DNA from: Celeribacter ethanolicus
GTDB taxonomy: Bacteria; Pseudomonadota; Alphaproteobacteria; Rhodobacterales; Rhodobacteraceae
Direction of reading: 5' to 3'
DNA length: 62,811 nucleotides
Assembly: GCF_001550095.1 (NCBI RefSeq)
Contig: NZ_LRUC01000028.1
Coordinates: 1-62,811 of the forward strand
Position 1 is the stretch's first letter. Each line of letters starts with the position of its first letter. The notes beneath the pieces are model-generated. The model saw only the letters and a program-made list of their open reading frames with translations. It made no database searches and was not told the DNA's origin. The position numbers and the translations under genes are program-made. Of the stretch, positions 29,177-43,158 are shown piece after piece.

Positions 29177-29327
29177 ACGCAGTTTTCCGCATGACGCTTG
29201 CTCCGACTGGGCCGCACCGCAGGGCGCGGCTCACGGAAGCGTGAGTTTTCCTCGCAAATGCGCGGTTCCTGCCCTGATTTCGTCGCTTTCTCATGGAAAG
29301 CTGATCGGGATCATCGGAGGGATAGAC

Positions 29328-29606
29328 GTGATTGACAGATTCAAACATTTTTGCGCGCTCTTCCGTGCAGATGACGAGGGGGCTGTGACGGTCGACTGGG
29401 TCGTGCTTGTCTCGGCCATCGTCGGGATGAGCATCATGGTGCTGTCGATCATCTGGCAGGGGGCCTTCACCTTCTCGATGCGGTTGAATTCCGAAGTCGA
29501 AAGCATGGACGTCGTGAATTATACCGACGCCTCGGAAGACAACTCTTCAGCAGAAAACGCTGCAGAAGACAACACCGCGGAGCAAAGCTCTTCGGCCAGC
29601 TTCTAA
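29328..29606 (+). CDS. Small Flp/Fap pilin-like membrane protein
   Basis: A 92-residue protein with one membrane segment (VDWVVLVSAIVGMSIMVLSII). The preceding DDEGAVTVDW is the prepilin-like motif seen in small Flp-related proteins of Rhodobacteraceae, with the Glu-Gly pair and downstream hydrophobic helix. The C-terminal third is acidic and Ser-rich. A GTG at 29328 is chosen because GGAGGG lies six bases upstream; a longer frame opens at 29241. There is no pilus assembly operon in the window. Confidence 0.65.
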   Translation: MIDRFKHFCALFRADDEGAVTVDWVVLVSAIVGMSIMVLSIIWQGAFTFSMRLNSEVESMDVVNYTDASEDNSSAENAAEDNTAEQSSSASF

Positions 29607-34745: not shown

Positions 34746-35050
34746 TAGATCATCCCCAGCGCTTCTTTGTACATTTCAAGGATCGCCTCTTCCTCGGCGA
34801 TCTCGTCGGCGGTCTTCTTACGCAGCGCGATCAGTTTGCGCATCGCCTTGGTGTCGTAACCGCGCCCCTTGGCCTCGGCCATCACCTCTTTCTGCTGATC
34901 GGCGATGTCCTTTTTCTCAAGCTCAAGCCGTTCGAAACGCTCTATGAAATTGCGCAGCTCTTCGGCTGTCACGCGATAGGTTTTGTCGCGTACCTCGCGG
35001 TCGGCATCGGTCTCTTTCATCGGGGTCTGATTTTCTGTCATGTCGAGCAT
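34745..35050 (-). CDS. GapR-like DUF2312 DNA-binding protein
   Basis: A 101-residue protein whose main part ([21 protein letters not shown], then KALIALRKK-like [21 protein letters not shown]) is the DUF2312/GapR coiled-coil fold. Chromosomal GapR encircles overtwisted DNA ahead of forks and RNA polymerase. A phage-borne copy may help phage replication or compete with the host protein; this is inference. AGAGG lies seven bases before the chosen ATG; 35041 is an alternative. Confidence 0.85.
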
Positions 35051-37242: not shown

Positions 37243-37899
37243 TCAATTCTCTGTTTGTTTTGGTGTCGTGCGGTGTGCTAGTGCTGCACTCAAATGCATT
37301 TTGACTGGTGCGGCCCATTTCACGGCGACGTCATACATGGGTGGGGTGTCGGCGTGAAATGAGATCAGGTCGAACAGGCCCTCGGGCTGTCCGTCGCGGC
37401 GGCGAAGCAGCTTGATCCAGACCATTCCGTCGGCGTCTTCAACAACGCAGCGTTTGCCGATGGCCTCAGAGGGAACGCCGATTACATCGCGGCTGTAGAA
37501 CAGGATGTCACCGGCTTCGTAAGCGGGTTCCATGGAATTGCCCTCGACCTCGACGGCGACAATGCCATGCGGCCCGATCTGCGGCGGACAGGCTATGTGG
37601 TAGAGGCCGTCGCCTTTGGGATAAGGGTCTTCAAGCTGCACTGTGGCTCCGGCTCCGACACGTCCTGCGACGGCAACAGAGTATGAACGCCCAATATTGC
37701 CGCTCATAAATTCTTCGGCAGAGACTCCGAAAGCCTCAATAACTTTCATGGCATCATCGACATTGGTCGATTTGTTGGCGCCCTGTTTGATTTTCTTGAG
37801 CTGTTCATAGGACACGCCAGATTGCTCCGCAATTTTGCGAAGCGATGTCCCTGTTTTTTCAAGGGCATTAGCCAATGCCGAACTGAACGTATTTTCCAT
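37243..37899 (-). CDS. CI/LexA-like prophage repressor (XRE HTH plus S24 peptidase)
   Basis: A 218-residue repressor. The N-terminal HTH (LRKIAEQSGVSYEQLKKIKQG) is followed by a Peptidase_S24 domain with the catalytic Ser in EGNSMEPAYEAGD and the Lys in WIKLLRR. An Ala-Gly bond in AVAGRVGAG is a likely RecA-stimulated self-cleavage site. The ATG at 37899 has no Shine-Dalgarno. A -10 TATTAT ends 6 nt upstream, so the message is probably leaderless, as for lambda cI. It faces the Cro-like gene across three operators. Confidence 0.92.
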   Translation of the reverse strand: MENTFSSALANALEKTGTSLRKIAEQSGVSYEQLKKIKQGANKSTNVDDAMKVIEAFGVSAEEFMSGNIGRSYSVAVAGRVGAGATVQLEDPYPKGDGLYHIACPPQIGPHGIVAVEVEGNSMEPAYEAGDILFYSRDVIGVPSEAIGKRCVVEDADGMVWIKLLRRRDGQPEGLFDLISFHADTPPMYDVAVKWAAPVKMHLSAALAHRTTPKQTEN

Positions 37900-37901
37900 A
37901 G

Positions 37902-37974
37902 GGGAATAATAATCCCCGCATGATCCCTTCATAAGGAGACAAAAGTCCCTTGACTGATTGGGGATAATAGTCCC
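37902..37974. promoter_or_regulatory. Immunity region: three operators and divergent cI and cro promoters
   Basis: Sites related to the palindrome at 36507 lie at 37902-37916 (11 of 15), 37935-37949 (12 of 15) and 37960-37974 (13 of 15). The rightward promoter reads TTGACT (37950-37955) with a -10 near CTATAT and has the third operator in its spacer. The leftward promoter has its -10 TATTAT inside the first operator. Three sites in 73 bp match a lambda OR layout. Confidence 0.8.
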
Positions 37975-37984
37975 TATATCGCGC

Positions 37985-38182
37985 ATGGCTAAAGATGACC
38001 TCATTTGTGAAATCGAAAAGTTTGCGGAGAGCATGAATGTTGCTCCAGCAACCGTCACAAGCCGTGCGGTCGGCAATAGTCGTTTGTATCAAAGGCTGAA
38101 GGACGGTGGCAGTTGCACTGTGCGGATCGCCGCAAAGTTGCGGGAATACATGGCTTCCGCCTCTGATCGGAGGGCCGCATGA
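37985..38182 (+). CDS. Cro-like HTH protein
   Basis: A 65-residue protein with a small HTH (NVAPATVTSRAVGNSRLYQRL) of a type common beside repressors in Rhodobacteraceae prophages. The promoter position puts the RNA start at or next to the ATG, with no ribosome site, so it too may be leaderless. The expected role is to lower repressor synthesis during lytic growth. Confidence 0.7.
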   Translation: MAKDDLICEIEKFAESMNVAPATVTSRAVGNSRLYQRLKDGGSCTVRIAAKLREYMASASDRRAA

Positions 38183-38763: not shown

Positions 38764-39630
38764 TTAGGCGTCCGCTACCAAACTCAAGAACTCGCTTTCT
38801 CCCAGAATTCGAATGGCTTGCCCTTTGGCAATCAGATCTTCTGCTTTGCGGTGTTTCGAGCTTTTTTCATGTCCAGCCAGGACTGCAAGGTCCTGATCTC
38901 CGACGATCAGGAGCGTGGTTTTCTTTGTGACACCAGAGGCGACCTCAATTCCGACTTTTGCGGCGAGCGCAGCGGCATCGCTTCGGGAAATTGTCAGGGC
39001 TCCGGTGAACACGCCGACTTGCCCGAACAACGCGCCCGCTTCATTGCCCGAAGCGGTGATGTTGTAATTCTTGTGGGGCGGTTTGTAGTCGAGCCAATCG
39101 CGGGGCGACCTGCCCGAGTGCGCAAAGGCGCGGAGCAGGACTTCGGCTGTGATGCGCGCATCTTCACCAGCGTCGTGATGGTTGAATGGAATACCGAAGT
39201 GCTTGCTGAGGTTGGAGAGACCATAGCCGCGTTTCGCGAAGTGCTCGGGCCAGGTGCGGCGCACAATGGTCATGCTGTCGAGCCAGAGGTCGAGTGGGCT
39301 TTGGGCGTTCAGAAGTGCATAGGCGTCGTTGATTGCCTTTTTGTCGAATGCGCTGTGGCTGATGGCGATGGTCGAACGAAACAGCTCCTCAAATGGGCTG
39401 ATTGCCTCAATGAAGGAGGGGCAGTCGACCACACGTTCGGGGGTGATCCCGTGGACGCTGATGTTCATGGAAGAAAAGCGGCAACCGGGGTTCACGTCGA
39501 TTGCATGCGTTGCGCTGACGCGGCCACCTTCGACGATAGAAATTCCGATCTGGCAAATCGAGCTGTGGTGTTCGTTCGCGGTCTCGAAGTCAAAAGTAAA
39601 AAAGTCGATGTTTGTGGCGTCGAGGGCCAT
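38764..39630 (-). CDS. DnaQ-like 3'-5' exonuclease with C-terminal BRCT domain
   Basis: A 288-residue protein. The exonuclease domain has DxE in FDFETAN, the Exo II region ISHSAFDKKAIND and Exo III HHDAGEDARITAE. From about residue 205 a BRCT fold follows (GQVGVFTGALTISRSDAAALAAKVG, quoted in part). It may act in proofreading, repair or degradation of foreign DNA. It is on the minus strand, against the early rightward genes, which suggests an independently acquired gene with its own promoter. GAGAGG precedes the ATG at 39630. Confidence 0.85.
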   Translation of the reverse strand: MALDATNIDFFTFDFETANEHHSSICQIGISIVEGGRVSATHAIDVNPGCRFSSMNISVHGITPERVVDCPSFIEAISPFEELFRSTIAISHSAFDKKAINDAYALLNAQSPLDLWLDSMTIVRRTWPEHFAKRGYGLSNLSKHFGIPFNHHDAGEDARITAEVLLRAFAHSGRSPRDWLDYKPPHKNYNITASGNEAGALFGQVGVFTGALTISRSDAAALAAKVGIEVASGVTKKTTLLIVGDQDLAVLAGHEKSSKHRKAEDLIAKGQAIRILGESEFLSLVADA

Positions 39631-39922
39631 ATCAATTTCCTCTCTCAAATCCGGGCGCAGCGTAGCGTGGGGCGGGTGCCCTGTCGAGCGTGGCGCGCGG
39701 GGCTGCCCGTCGCTTCCTCACCTTGTGCGGCGGGCAGGGGCGTGCGCTCCATTTCCTCCTCCCAAAGGGGCGCACGTCGGATTTCGGAATGCGTCGAGCG
39801 TGCCTGCCTGTGCGCGCTCCGCATGGGCTGTGGGGCGGGGGTGTGCCCTGCCGTCCATCTGGGCGCGGCGGCTCTCGAAAGCCGGTATGCCGCCGCGCCT
39901 CTTTTTCACAAGGGGGTGGCCT
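39631..39922. other. GC-rich stretch without a recognised gene
   Basis: This 292-bp gap should hold the promoter of the leftward exonuclease gene and possibly a rightward one. Frames are open on both strands because of high GC, but none shows a ribosome site with family pattern. Confidence 0.4.
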
Positions 39923-40372: not shown

Positions 40373-40650
40373 GTGCGCTTCCTGCGGAGATGATCGGTCC
40401 TGAGGTGACGGACCCGGACCGGCTTCGGATGATGTGGCTGGCGGTGTTGGTCGAGGGGGTCAATACGGCGCTCGGTCATGGGGTGGGCAAGATCTCGGTT
40501 GCGCAGCGGGTCGAGGCAGTTTCGTGGATCGGATCGCAGGATTTCGATGCGGTCTGCGGGTTCATCGGGATCGAACCCACGGTGGTTCTGATGCAGATCG
40601 AGACCCTGCGCGAGATGGGGTTGCCGTTCGAGGTGGAGGTTTGGGGATGA
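40369..40650 (+). CDS. Prophage protein of unknown function
   Basis: A 93-residue acidic, helical protein starting at GTG, overlapping its neighbours by 4 bp on both sides (GTGA and ATGA). No family recognised. Confidence 0.65.
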   Translation: MSALPAEMIGPEVTDPDRLRMMWLAVLVEGVNTALGHGVGKISVAQRVEAVSWIGSQDFDAVCGFIGIEPTVVLMQIETLREMGLPFEVEVWG

Positions 40651-41354
40651 GTGCAGCCTCCGTCAAACCGCTTTTCCGTGCCATTTCGGGTCAGAGCATG
40701 AAGGCTCACTCGGCGCAGATGATGATTGCCGGGTGCGATCGGGAACATCGCCGTGCGGATGGTGGGCGCGATCCTCTGGATTTTGACCCGACACCGCCAA
40801 GTGCGATAGAGGCCGTTTTGCGCGAAGAGGCCGAATTCATCCGCGCTCATGGCAATGTGGTTTGGGAAAATGCCGTGGGTGCCGGTCACTGCGCGAAGGT
40901 GCTTTCTGCGCATGGGTTCGAGGTTTTGGGCAGTGATGTCGTGGATCGAGGCTGGGGCGGTGATTTGGAACTGCGCAGCTTTCTCGACTACGCCGTGCCC
41001 AGGTCGCGCGTGGCGTTCACGAATCCGCCGTACAATCTGATCAATGCACGTGACGGTCACGGTTGGTGGCTGCGTCATTCTTTTGATCTTGGCCTTGGCT
41101 ATGTCGGTCTGCTGCTCAATGCAGATTGGCCCGCCGCGCGGATCAACGGCATGGACGCGCTTTTGGAAGAGCACCCGCCCAGCGTGGAATATCTCTGTTG
41201 CTGGAAAATTGATTTTCGGGGTGGCGGCGCGCCACCGCAGCGCAATTCGTGGTTCATCTGGGATGAAAACAGGCCTGCGCCAGACGGCGGCGGCTGGCTG
41301 CGCAAGCGGCTCTACAAAGACGGGCCGGACCCGCGTCAAGAGGTGTTGCTATGA
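40647..41354 (+). CDS. Phage N6-adenine/N4-cytosine DNA methyltransferase-like protein
   Basis: A 235-residue protein with the amino-methyltransferase motif IV as TNPPYN near residue 132. Motif I is weak (NAVGAGHCAK), as in phage Dam-like enzymes that use the ENPVGxG form. Probably methylates phage DNA to avoid restriction or to control packaging; the specificity is unknown. Overlaps neighbours by 4 bp on both sides. Confidence 0.8.
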   Translation: MSAASVKPLFRAISGQSMKAHSAQMMIAGCDREHRRADGGRDPLDFDPTPPSAIEAVLREEAEFIRAHGNVVWENAVGAGHCAKVLSAHGFEVLGSDVVDRGWGGDLELRSFLDYAVPRSRVAFTNPPYNLINARDGHGWWLRHSFDLGLGYVGLLLNADWPAARINGMDALLEEHPPSVEYLCCWKIDFRGGGAPPQRNSWFIWDENRPAPDGGGWLRKRLYKDGPDPRQEVLL

Positions 41355-41713
41355 GCGAGACCCGTTCCGCAAATGCGGTGGCAGCGCATTTTGAGCCGTT
41401 TAAGGAGTTCGCTTTTGCGCAACTCGAAGCCGCCCCGCTGATTGAGCCGGGGGTGTGTTTCCGGCCCGAATGCGGGCGGCGGTTCGTCTCGTCACGCGGG
41501 TGGCAGATTTATTGCTGTGCGGCCTGTCGAAATGCCGACACGGCAGAGGCGCGGGCTTGGGGCCACAAGGCGTCATTGCCGCTTTTGGTCCACCGGCTCG
41601 GGAACAAATCAAAAGATGAGGCGATCCGGGAGCGCACGAAGGTGGCGCGCCGCTACTTGTGGCGGCTGCAATCAGCGTGGCTGGAAGATCGTCGAGGGAG
41701 GGGCGAAAAGTGA
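41351..41713 (+). CDS. Small zinc-finger-like prophage protein
   Basis: A 120-residue protein with four clustered Cys (CFRPECGRRF and YCCAACRNAD) that form a likely zinc ribbon, then a basic helix. It overlaps both neighbours by 4 bp. It lies just before the replication gene and may bind DNA or RNA. Confidence 0.65.
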   Translation: MSETRSANAVAAHFEPFKEFAFAQLEAAPLIEPGVCFRPECGRRFVSSRGWQIYCCAACRNADTAEARAWGHKASLPLLVHRLGNKSKDEAIRERTKVARRYLWRLQSAWLEDRRGRGEK

Positions 41714-42366
41714 CAGAGATCGGATTGTGTGAGGGTCGCGACTACATTGTGTGGCCGCTCAAGCGGGGTGAAACTTTGTCGAACCACGACTGGTTCCCGT
41801 TCTATGGTCACAGGTTTCTTGGTTCTCGCTTCTTGTCCGTTTCGTTGTTGAAGGGGCGAAGGGAAGATATTGGCACGGCTCTGATCCTCTGGACAGAGGC
41901 GATGAGCCAAGACCCCGGAGGGACGTTGCCGGACTGTAATATGGAGCTGGCAGGGCTCGCGCGCTTTTCCAGTGTCGATGAGTGGGTGTCCGTCAGGGAA
42001 AATGTGATGGCGGGCTGGGTGCCGGTCGAGGTCGAGGACGAAGTGGCGGGAAAGATGATCACCCGGCTCGGCCACCCTGGCTTCATGCAGGGGGTCGTCG
42101 CGGAAATGTATAAGCGCAAGAAGGGCCGCGATGGTGCGCGTGAGGCCGCTCGTGTTGCGGTCAAAAAGTCGCGGCTCAAAGCGAAGCTGGAAGAGATGAA
42201 AGGCTATGAAAATGTCATCGCCAACCCTCAGGCGATCATGCAGCTTGTCGAGTATTTCGAGCATTCCGACCTCTTTATGACACCGGACAATATCCGTGCC
42301 GCGTTGCATGAAGTGCTCGGGTGGAGCGGACAGGTCCGGCCTTTTCCGCAAAATGGAAGTGCCTGA
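41710..42366 (+). CDS. DUF1376-like phage replication protein
   Basis: A 218-residue protein. The N-terminal segment (DWFPFYGHRFLGSRF, then LWTEAMSQDPGGTLPD and LAGLARFSS) resembles the DUF1376/replisome-organiser N-domain found in initiators of temperate phages. The rest is basic and helical. GTG start overlaps the preceding stop. It is followed directly by the iteron cluster, which it probably binds. Confidence 0.6.
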   Translation: MTEIGLCEGRDYIVWPLKRGETLSNHDWFPFYGHRFLGSRFLSVSLLKGRREDIGTALILWTEAMSQDPGGTLPDCNMELAGLARFSSVDEWVSVRENVMAGWVPVEVEDEVAGKMITRLGHPGFMQGVVAEMYKRKKGRDGAREAARVAVKKSRLKAKLEEMKGYENVIANPQAIMQLVEYFEHSDLFMTPDNIRAALHEVLGWSGQVRPFPQNGSA

Positions 42367-42373
42367 TGAGGTC

Positions 42374-42531
42374 CTGAAATACATCTGAAATCTACTGAAA
42401 TGTTTCTGAAATATTTCAGTAGATTTCAGGTCGATTACTGAAATTGCCCTATAGGACAACACATTAAAAAACATAACAAAAAACCTTTCCTTAGGGCGCG
42501 GAGAGAGGTCGCCGTTGCGATCTGTGGATAA
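42374..42531. other. Candidate phage replication origin with iterons and a DnaA box
   Basis: Seven copies of CTGAAAT lie within 71 bp: direct at 42374, 42385, 42395, 42406 and 42438, inverted at 42413 and 42423. The first four are spaced 11, 10 and 11 bp, on one face of the helix. An AT-rich run (ATTAAAAAACATAACAAAA) follows, and TGTGGATAA at 42523-42531 is a perfect DnaA box. This is the anatomy of an iteron origin. Confidence 0.75.
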
Positions 42532-42561
42532 GTTGGAAGTTTGCTGAGAAAGGGGGCTGAA

Positions 42562-43158
42562 ATGGACGGGGAAGTGCAGAAGGTGGAAAGCGGTCGCGCC
42601 CGTGTGAAGCGGGTTTTGATCGGGTCTCTCGAAGAGGGCGGAATGGGGCGCAAGCGCGGGGTGAGTGTGGCGGACCATGAGGCCACGATGGAGAAGCTGG
42701 CGAACCGATTGAGCTACATGACCGAAGACGGTCTCAAGGGGTTGGCGATGTATCTGATCCGCATGGGCGGGGAAAAGAACGTCTGGCCGGACCTCAATAT
42801 CGTCTTGCGCTGTGCCTGGTCGATGGAGCCGCCGCCGCCGCGTGACAATGATTTCCTGATGAGCCTCATGCGGTCTCGGGCCGGGGAGGCTGCGCTGACG
42901 GGTGGGTATGCGCTCCAGCTTTATGCTGCGGCGCGCAAGCTCGGGCCACCTCCTTCGAAATACGAGGTTCAGCGGTTGCGCGATAAGGCGCAGCAGGATC
43001 GGGACCGAAAGCGTGTGATCGAAGACCGGATCAAGCGTGGTGTTGTGACACGGGCCGAACAGGGGTGGCTCGACGGTTACATGCGGATGAGCGCGGAGGC
43101 CGAAGCGCTGATCCGCGAGGGAATTGAAAGACGCGAAGCGGGAAGGGATGCGGCATGA
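42562..43158 (+). CDS. Prophage protein downstream of the origin, possible helicase loader
   Basis: A 198-residue protein with a globular first half (EDGLKGLAMYLIRMGGEKNVW) and a charged helical second half (LRDKAQQDRDRKRVIEDRIKRG). No family is recognised. A helicase loader or replication factor is suggested only by location between initiator, origin and late genes. GGGGG lies five bases before the ATG. Confidence 0.6.
   Translation: MDGEVQKVESGRARVKRVLIGSLEEGGMGRKRGVSVADHEATMEKLANRLSYMTEDGLKGLAMYLIRMGGEKNVWPDLNIVLRCAWSMEPPPPRDNDFLMSLMRSRAGEAALTGGYALQLYAAARKLGPPPSKYEVQRLRDKAQQDRDRKRVIEDRIKRGVVTRAEQGWLDGYMRMSAEAEALIREGIERREAGRDAA

Follow-up and report, generated by a model that had tools for sequence, protein, structure and literature searches.

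A predicted iteron-type phage origin in Rhodobacteraceae and the covariation of its repeats with a DUF1376-related initiator

The locus and its features

The window (the whole stretch of DNA that was analysed, 62,811 nucleotides) contains a prophage in which an S24 repressor gene (37243-38076), an exonuclease gene with a BRCT domain (38764-39648) and a methyltransferase-like gene (40641-41354) are followed by the gene of a putative initiator. On the 3' side of the latter lie a repeat array, two genes with a small open reading frame, and an HNH gene; terminase, portal and capsid genes, read from the list of open reading frames, come further along. The same prophage is present in a viral-contig record, with a 100% identical initiator. 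The features on which the analysis rests are the following.

41710..42366, plus strand: initiator gene, 218 aa (structure model, phrog_22470 profile match, homologues)
42151..42189, plus strand: codons 148-160 of the initiator, the best predictor of the iteron among distant relatives (covariation, nearest-neighbour prediction)
42374..42380, plus strand: iteron 1, CTGAAAT (sequence match)
42385..42391, plus strand: iteron 2, CTGAAAT (sequence match)
42395..42401, plus strand: iteron 3, CTGAAAT (sequence match)
42406..42412, plus strand: iteron 4, CTGAAAT (sequence match)
42413..42419, minus strand: iteron 5, CTGAAAT inverted (sequence match)
42423..42429, minus strand: iteron 6, CTGAAAT inverted (sequence match)
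42438..42444, plus strand: iteron 7, CTGAAAT (sequence match)
42444..42459, no strand: near-palindrome TTGCCCTATAGGACAA (inverted repeat I4), bridging iteron 7 and the T-poor tract
42453..42485, plus strand: A-rich, T-poor tract with a 5-bp period, a predicted DNA unwinding element (period and weak duplex)
42523..42531, minus strand: DnaA box TTATCCACA (exact match; same orientation in relatives)
42562..43158, plus strand: conserved downstream gene, 198 aa, predicted all-helical (aligned with 35 loci; model pLDDT 92.7)

The original prediction described seven copies of CTGAAAT in 71 bp, five direct and two inverted, and all seven were located at 42374-42444; the leading four direct copies, which it held to be helically phased, start 11, 10 and 11 bp apart. 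CTGAAAT occurs 14 times in the window, against 7.2 expected (the observed count being reached in 0 of 100 shuffles), and the 4.2-Mb genome contains no second site with three direct copies at the array spacing. The array starts at 42374, past the stop codon of the initiator gene (which ends at 42366), so that no iteron lies inside that gene. There is no copy between 34,281 and 42,374, and therefore none near the repressor gene. An eighth copy (42557-42563), outside the array, extends into the downstream start codon, probably by chance.

An AT-rich run and a perfect DnaA box had also been claimed, and both are present. Duplex stability was computed for the window only: among its 101-bp stretches none (0 of 62,711) is less stable than 42376-42476, and among those of 51 bp the iterons (42377-42427) are weakest, followed by 42433-42483 with the tract. 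The period of the tract has a p value of 0.007, computed over a script-chosen 45 bp that begins at the last iteron. An exact DnaA box occurs in the window once, as TGTGGATAA at 42523-42531; taken by itself this is weak evidence (0.09 expected, and a box turns up in 9 of 100 shuffles). The minimum of the cumulative GC skew falls at 34,963, and there is no switch at 42.4 kb. The window contains 48 GANTC sites, with 0 in the origin region (42200-42700).

A structure model of the initiator, computed from the window protein and 39 unaltered homologues (alignment A2, 40 members; mean pLDDT 89.5, pTM 0.71), predicts a winged-helix-like N-terminal half (residues 33-121), a long basic helix of 38 residues (125-162) and C-terminal helices (167-203). 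A Foldseek search with this model returned no firm relative, only weak winged-helix matches, the best being TFE-alpha (E 0.039) and a GlpD-DnaD model (E 0.052). The PHROGs family phrog_22470, annotated 'replication protein', is matched by 40 of the 40 A2 members at E<=0.01 (best 4.7e-17), the window initiator itself matching weakly (E 0.0067). The description of the gene as DUF1376-like failed for the window protein, which has no Pfam DUF1376 match at E<=0.1 or at E<=1; 12 of the 40 A2 homologues match DUF1376 (PF07120) weakly at E<=0.01, the best of them (L040, E 8.9e-6) scoring 26.4 bits against a gathering cut-off of 30.1. No Pfam plasmid Rep family matches the window protein (E<=0.1) or any of the 40 A2 members (E<=0.01). 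Apart from the copy in the same prophage, the nearest homologue is 69% identical (L105). Residues 144-161 of one homologue (L034), at the end of the long helix, give a weak match to Pfam bZIP_2 (E 0.0075, below cut-off); the corresponding value for the L032 initiator is E 0.34.

A structure search with the downstream protein found no PDB match at E<=0.001 and nothing below E 1.2; among the 35 downstream loci aligned, one (L071) is a NusG-like gene that was included by mistake. By its position only, the downstream product is a candidate replication partner, for example in helicase loading.

Conservation of array, tract and DnaA box among relatives

Samples of 394 genomes from the host family and 390 from the host order yielded homologues of the initiator in 21 and 36 genomes, respectively (the genome of the window being counted in both), and other scans added to these; loci were taken for 30 of the 52 matches of the order-wide scan. 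The 102 loci collected gave 71 distinct gaps behind the initiator gene; three were added and three dropped as broken, cut or another gene (L069, L096, L100), leaving 71 that were tested for arrays. A copy of L033 (L106) was left out of the element counts, which thus cover 70 gaps, and these with 45 hold-out loci make up the set of 115. An N-terminally short member (L015) was left out of the covariation tests, and a locus with another gene and no array (L207) was left out of the period, spacing and hold-out DnaA-box counts. One further homologue (G440:C28:219183-219800) has an in-frame TGA and is apparently a broken copy. Because the distinctness filters compared positions without gaps, loci differing by insertions or deletions were counted apart; since the filter is coarse in this way and the loci are related, the effective number of independent origins is smaller than the locus counts given here.

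Loss of the repeats near homologous replication genes had been named as an outcome that would speak against an origin; the array is found in the same gap in 62 of 71 loci. These are the loci with a repeat array at p<=0.05 in the 120 bp 3' of the initiator stop codon (most repeated exact 6-mer against dinucleotide shuffles), 55 of the 71 also passing p<=0.01; upstream and downstream coding controls gave 1/71 and 2/71 at p<=0.05, and the exact 6-mer test at that threshold missed 9 of the 71 gaps. At least three exact iteron copies (median five) are present in 109 of the 115 loci, and in these 109 the distance between same-orientation neighbours is 10-11 bp in 152 and 20-22 bp in 57 of 241 pairs. 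With 209 of 241 pairs at whole-turn spacing, helical phasing is therefore a trait of the family. The iteron itself varies from relative to relative (CTGAAAT, GTGAAAT, CTGTAAT, CTGTTAT, CTGTCAT, CTGTGAC, CTGTTGCGC, CTGTCC, CTGTTCC, CGGAAGGAA and others). The comparison thus goes beyond the first reading of the locus in three respects: the iteron is not fixed, the adjacent tract has a 5-bp period, and the exact DnaA box occurs in under half of the relatives.

Exact copies of TGTGGATAA are present in 27 of the 70 related gaps, all in one (forward) orientation, with 0/70 in each control, and in 21 of 45 hold-out loci, again all forward and with none in controls. The exact box is missing in 43 of the 70 gaps; when one mismatch is allowed, 31 forward and 1 reverse copies are found. 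Given these frequencies and the single orientation, we regard the box as part of the design, yet over half of the loci lack it. The core of the near-palindrome, CCTAYARGACA, is found exactly in 31 of the 70 gaps (0/70 in each control). Between box and downstream gene the window has TTGCTGAGAAAGGGGG (42541-42556); GCTGAGAAAG, with at most one mismatch, occurs in 36 of the 70 gaps and in 3/70 and 1/70 of the controls.

In 69 of 70 loci one and the same strand of the tract is poor in T, and over the 70 loci its 5-bp period is evident at lags 5, 10 and 15 (z 17.7, 15.4 and 12.5; other lags <=2.4). Taken locus by locus, the period is seen in 68 of 115 loci at p<=0.05 and 62 at p<=0.01, leaving 47 of 115 in which it is absent at p<=0.05; for the coding controls the counts are 12 and 7 of 115 at the looser threshold and 2 and 0 at the stricter one. 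When the loci are reduced to 41 cluster representatives, lags 5 and 10 give z values of 7.6 and 7.3, and lag 15 drops to 2.7. On the opposite strand, lags 10 and 11 are raised (z 5.5 and 3.9) and lag 5 is not (0.5), a signal that we ascribe to the iterons; some of the chosen 45-bp stretches overlap iterons, which would lift lags 10-11 and not lag 5. A period of 3, the mark of the DnaA-trio, is not seen, the z values at lag 3 being -1.7 and -2.4 (against 17.7 and 7.6 at lag 5).

Covariation of iteron and initiator

Across 69 loci, the C-terminal half of the initiator tracks the iteron distance (partial r 0.33, permutation p 0.001) and its N-terminal half does not (-0.05, p 0.97); in sliding windows the covariation is highest at residues 140-163 and 148-171. 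We also predicted the iteron triplet of each locus by taking it from the locus with the most similar protein segment, with identity of the N-domain limited as a control for kinship; the 91 of 115 loci used were those whose CTG/GTG triplet was seen at least three times. With N-domain identity below 55%, the triplet is correctly predicted in 44% of cases from residues 148-160, 38% from residues 140-163 and 32% from the whole N-domain (chance, 13%); the six segments in front give 14-32%, and the two segments behind give 18% and 24%. For base 5 alone, both helix segments reach 66% at this limit, against 35-56%. Below 70% identity, residues 182-205 are level with residues 140-163 for the triplet (53% and 54%) and score 65% against 78% for base 5; below 90% all segments perform about alike (53-69%), as expected. 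The C-terminal codons adjoin the iterons, and joint inheritance of the two by recombination could therefore give part of the covariation.

Near-identical initiators can face different arrays. The proteins of L053 and L056 are identical over residues 1-150 and have 15 differences thereafter, and their arrays are almost wholly different, with CTGTAAT in the former and CTGTTAA/CTGTGAT in the latter. Both kinds of initiator (L025, L029) coexist in a single genome, G051.

A code in which a single residue, 151, sets base 5 of the iteron was considered separately. It was clean in the discovery loci and met exceptions in new ones, and for that reason the relation that we propose from these alignments (V, T or L with A; M with T; Q with C; S or N with G) is graded as suggestive. 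In 53 main-clade loci, V, T or L goes with A in 30/31 and M with T in 6/7 (the seventh, L056, has mixed iterons); Q goes with C in 3/4, S or N with G in 4/4 and A with T in 4/4, and K is found with C twice and with T once. Among hold-out loci of the main clade (a clade drawn after the hold-out), V, L or T goes with A in 7/8, the exception being a V with G in L154, a locus that shares its contig with the excluded L069. Q goes with C in 1/2 (L181; L169 has A), L155 has N, for which there was no prior prediction, and no new main-clade locus has M or S; a second hold-out added no main-clade locus. In a tree-based test of co-change with base 5, residues 150, 158, 127 and 151 rank highest (p 0.0013 to 0.0057); once the 194 columns are corrected for, none remains significant. 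For base 4, columns 34, 134 and 27 come first, all outside the helix end.

Interpretation, known systems and spread of the module

The only homologue in the phage collection is p32 of Paracoccus phage Pben1 (40% identical, annotated 'putative replication protein'), and the gap behind it has the same layout: it contains CTGAAAT and CTGTAAT copies of either orientation together with a TGCCCTACAGGACA box, and CCTGTGGATAA precedes the following gene. Pben1 also resembles the window in having a methyltransferase-like gene upstream of its initiator. The authors of the Pben1 study place the phage among active phages and p32 among predicted initiators (PMC6536676, in the portion of the text available); in that portion no description of the origin was found, and the word 'iteron' is absent from the main text. 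Likewise, neither 'iteron' nor 'origin of replication' was found in the available text of a survey of 103 alphaproteobacterial phages (PMC10783043). No description of the present class of origin was found in the open-access literature searched.

The original prediction of a compact phage origin is supported, as far as comparison of sequences goes, by the conserved array, its helical spacing, the DnaA box of constant orientation, the phrog_22470 match and the Pben1 layout. We consider the locus to be an iteron-type origin of a temperate phage of Rhodobacteraceae type with a DUF1376-related initiator, and put the probability of this reading at roughly 0.87; the host family is taken from the named relatives. 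From the arrangement we infer binding, melting, strand capture and helicase loading in that order. Several copies of the 41710-42366 protein would occupy the phased 7-bp iterons, whose variable bases would be read by the terminal part of the long basic helix (about residues 140-163). The initiator complex, together with host DnaA at the single box, would then melt the neighbouring A-rich tract; one exposed strand, with its 5-nt periodic RGACA/ACARN-like motif (read by eye), might be kept in register by either the initiator or DnaA; and a helicase would be loaded at the melted tract, possibly via the 42562-43158 product. That the family as a whole reads its iterons by the end of the long helix under a largely readable residue-to-base relation, perhaps with that helix placed in the groove like a bZIP basic region (compare the weak bZIP_2 match of one homologue), and that the 5-nt repeat sets the register of the melted strand, is a tentative proposal, to which we give a little better than one chance in three.

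The predicted origin shares elements with several known systems. Like the iteron plasmid origins (RK2/TrfA, F/RepE, P1/RepA), it has phased repeats, an adjacent initiator gene, a DnaA box and a weak AT-rich element with short repeats; it differs from them in its 7-bp core, one-turn spacing and mixed orientation, in the lack of a match to a Pfam Rep family, in a DNA unwinding element (DUE) of period 5 where the plasmids have 13-mers, and in a DnaA box that is often missing. With lambda O and ori-lambda it has in common a temperate phage initiator with iterons and a next gene that may encode a helicase partner; the lambda iterons are located inside the O gene, whereas here they start after the initiator stop codon. 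Plasmid Rep proteins are reported to bind one DUE strand besides the iterons (PMC4081077; PMC10797057), and ori2 of Vibrio cholerae, also an iteron-type origin, has a 5-nt DUE repeat, (G/A)ATCA, with single-stranded DNA binding by its initiator RctB (PMC10797057; these sources as available in part). In ori2 the repeat sequence and the initiator are other than those described here, and the replicon is a chromosome, not a phage. The DnaA-trio of bacterial oriC likewise consists of short strand-specific repeats near a DnaA box, which according to the available part of the same paper (PMC10797057) position protein on one strand; its period is 3, and that of the present tract is 5. A 5-nt unwinding-element grammar of the present kind was not found in the literature compared, nor was a described origin found in the open-access literature searched for the DUF1376/phrog_22470 phage replication proteins, the sequence family to which the initiator belongs.

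The array might instead be a set of operators through which the upstream protein or another regulator controls downstream transcription, replication starting elsewhere. It does lie directly before the gene at 42562, and inverted copies are typical of operators; many initiators also autoregulate. A median of five phased copies, a weak duplex, a periodic tract and a DnaA box would be unexpected of an operator; moreover, all 40 A2 members match a 'replication protein' family, and CTGAAAT is absent from the neighbourhood of the repressor gene. We judge this reading improbable. A structured element (an RNA hairpin, attenuator or cruciform, with the repeats a by-product) is more improbable still. 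For the window array a stem of 23 pairs is predicted (-28.3 kcal/mol, z -6.7), and the L031 and L163 arrays likewise fold more stably than their shuffled versions (z -5.6 and -3.6), but such a stem arises by necessity from opposed iterons, and arrays like that of L031 consist mostly of direct copies. Neither the 10-11 bp direct spacing nor the covariation with the protein requires an RNA, no U-run follows the stem in the window, and Rfam yields only matches to microRNA hairpins, far below cut-offs.

On the reading as an origin, exchangeable iterons read by one helix segment, together with a 5-bp unwinding grammar, would make the system more than just another iteron-type origin. Joint changes of specificity in origin and initiator are hard to trace when the pairs evolve slowly; here the layout is kept while the repeat and one helix change together, and the recognition rules may for that reason be readable by comparison. 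If the proposal is true, the 115 loci are natural initiator-origin pairs with switched specificity, and because they combine one layout, many iterons and near-identical initiators (as in G051), both the residue-to-base reading and the strand-specific 5-nt guidance are testable with natural proteins. The analysis also offers a candidate origin for a class of prophages in the sampled genomes of the family and order and for phages such as Pben1 and Psul1.

In Paracoccus phage Psul1, a gene annotated as hypothetical, p22 (L246, 3980-4780), encodes a member of the family and is followed by an ACTGTCC-type array and CCTGTGGATAAG. The available part of the Psul1 description suggests p21 as the replication gene (PMC6536676); from the sequence comparison, the replication initiator is probably p22 and not p21. 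Initiator and downstream gene can be uncoupled: the initiator of L032 is 60% identical to that of the window, and its downstream protein 22%.

The module is also carried by the Phaeobacter inhibens plasmid pP66_i (L245, NZ_CP010714.1), a complete circular record of 33,801 bp that has phage capsid, portal and terminase genes and an integrase gene as well. The PLSDB gene table, which may be incomplete, lists 53 genes for it and names no replication protein among them; Pfam searches with 10 of the 53 gave no Rep family. As evidence for autonomous replication the plasmid is circumstantial, and the integrase gene tells the other way. Phased repeats beside a winged-helix gene are also found at centromeres, and the presence of the module on a circular phage-like plasmid would suit a partition or incompatibility site (a parS-like centromere, to which the upstream protein would bind to serve maintenance instead of initiation), but no partition ATPase was found among the ten neighbours scanned or is named in the pP66_i gene table, and an origin accounts better for the periodic tract and the DnaA box, so that this is the least probable of the readings considered. 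In the pP66_i gap an ACTGTC/AGTGTC-type array is followed by a tract with a DnaA box and, beyond these, by another such pair. The second pair sits in a 774-bp stretch that is 94% identical to L006, which points to a recombination joint inside the pP66_i origin: positions 29182-29448 form a mosaic in which an array-tract-DnaA box unit is fused to a tract, DnaA box and downstream gene of the L006 lineage.
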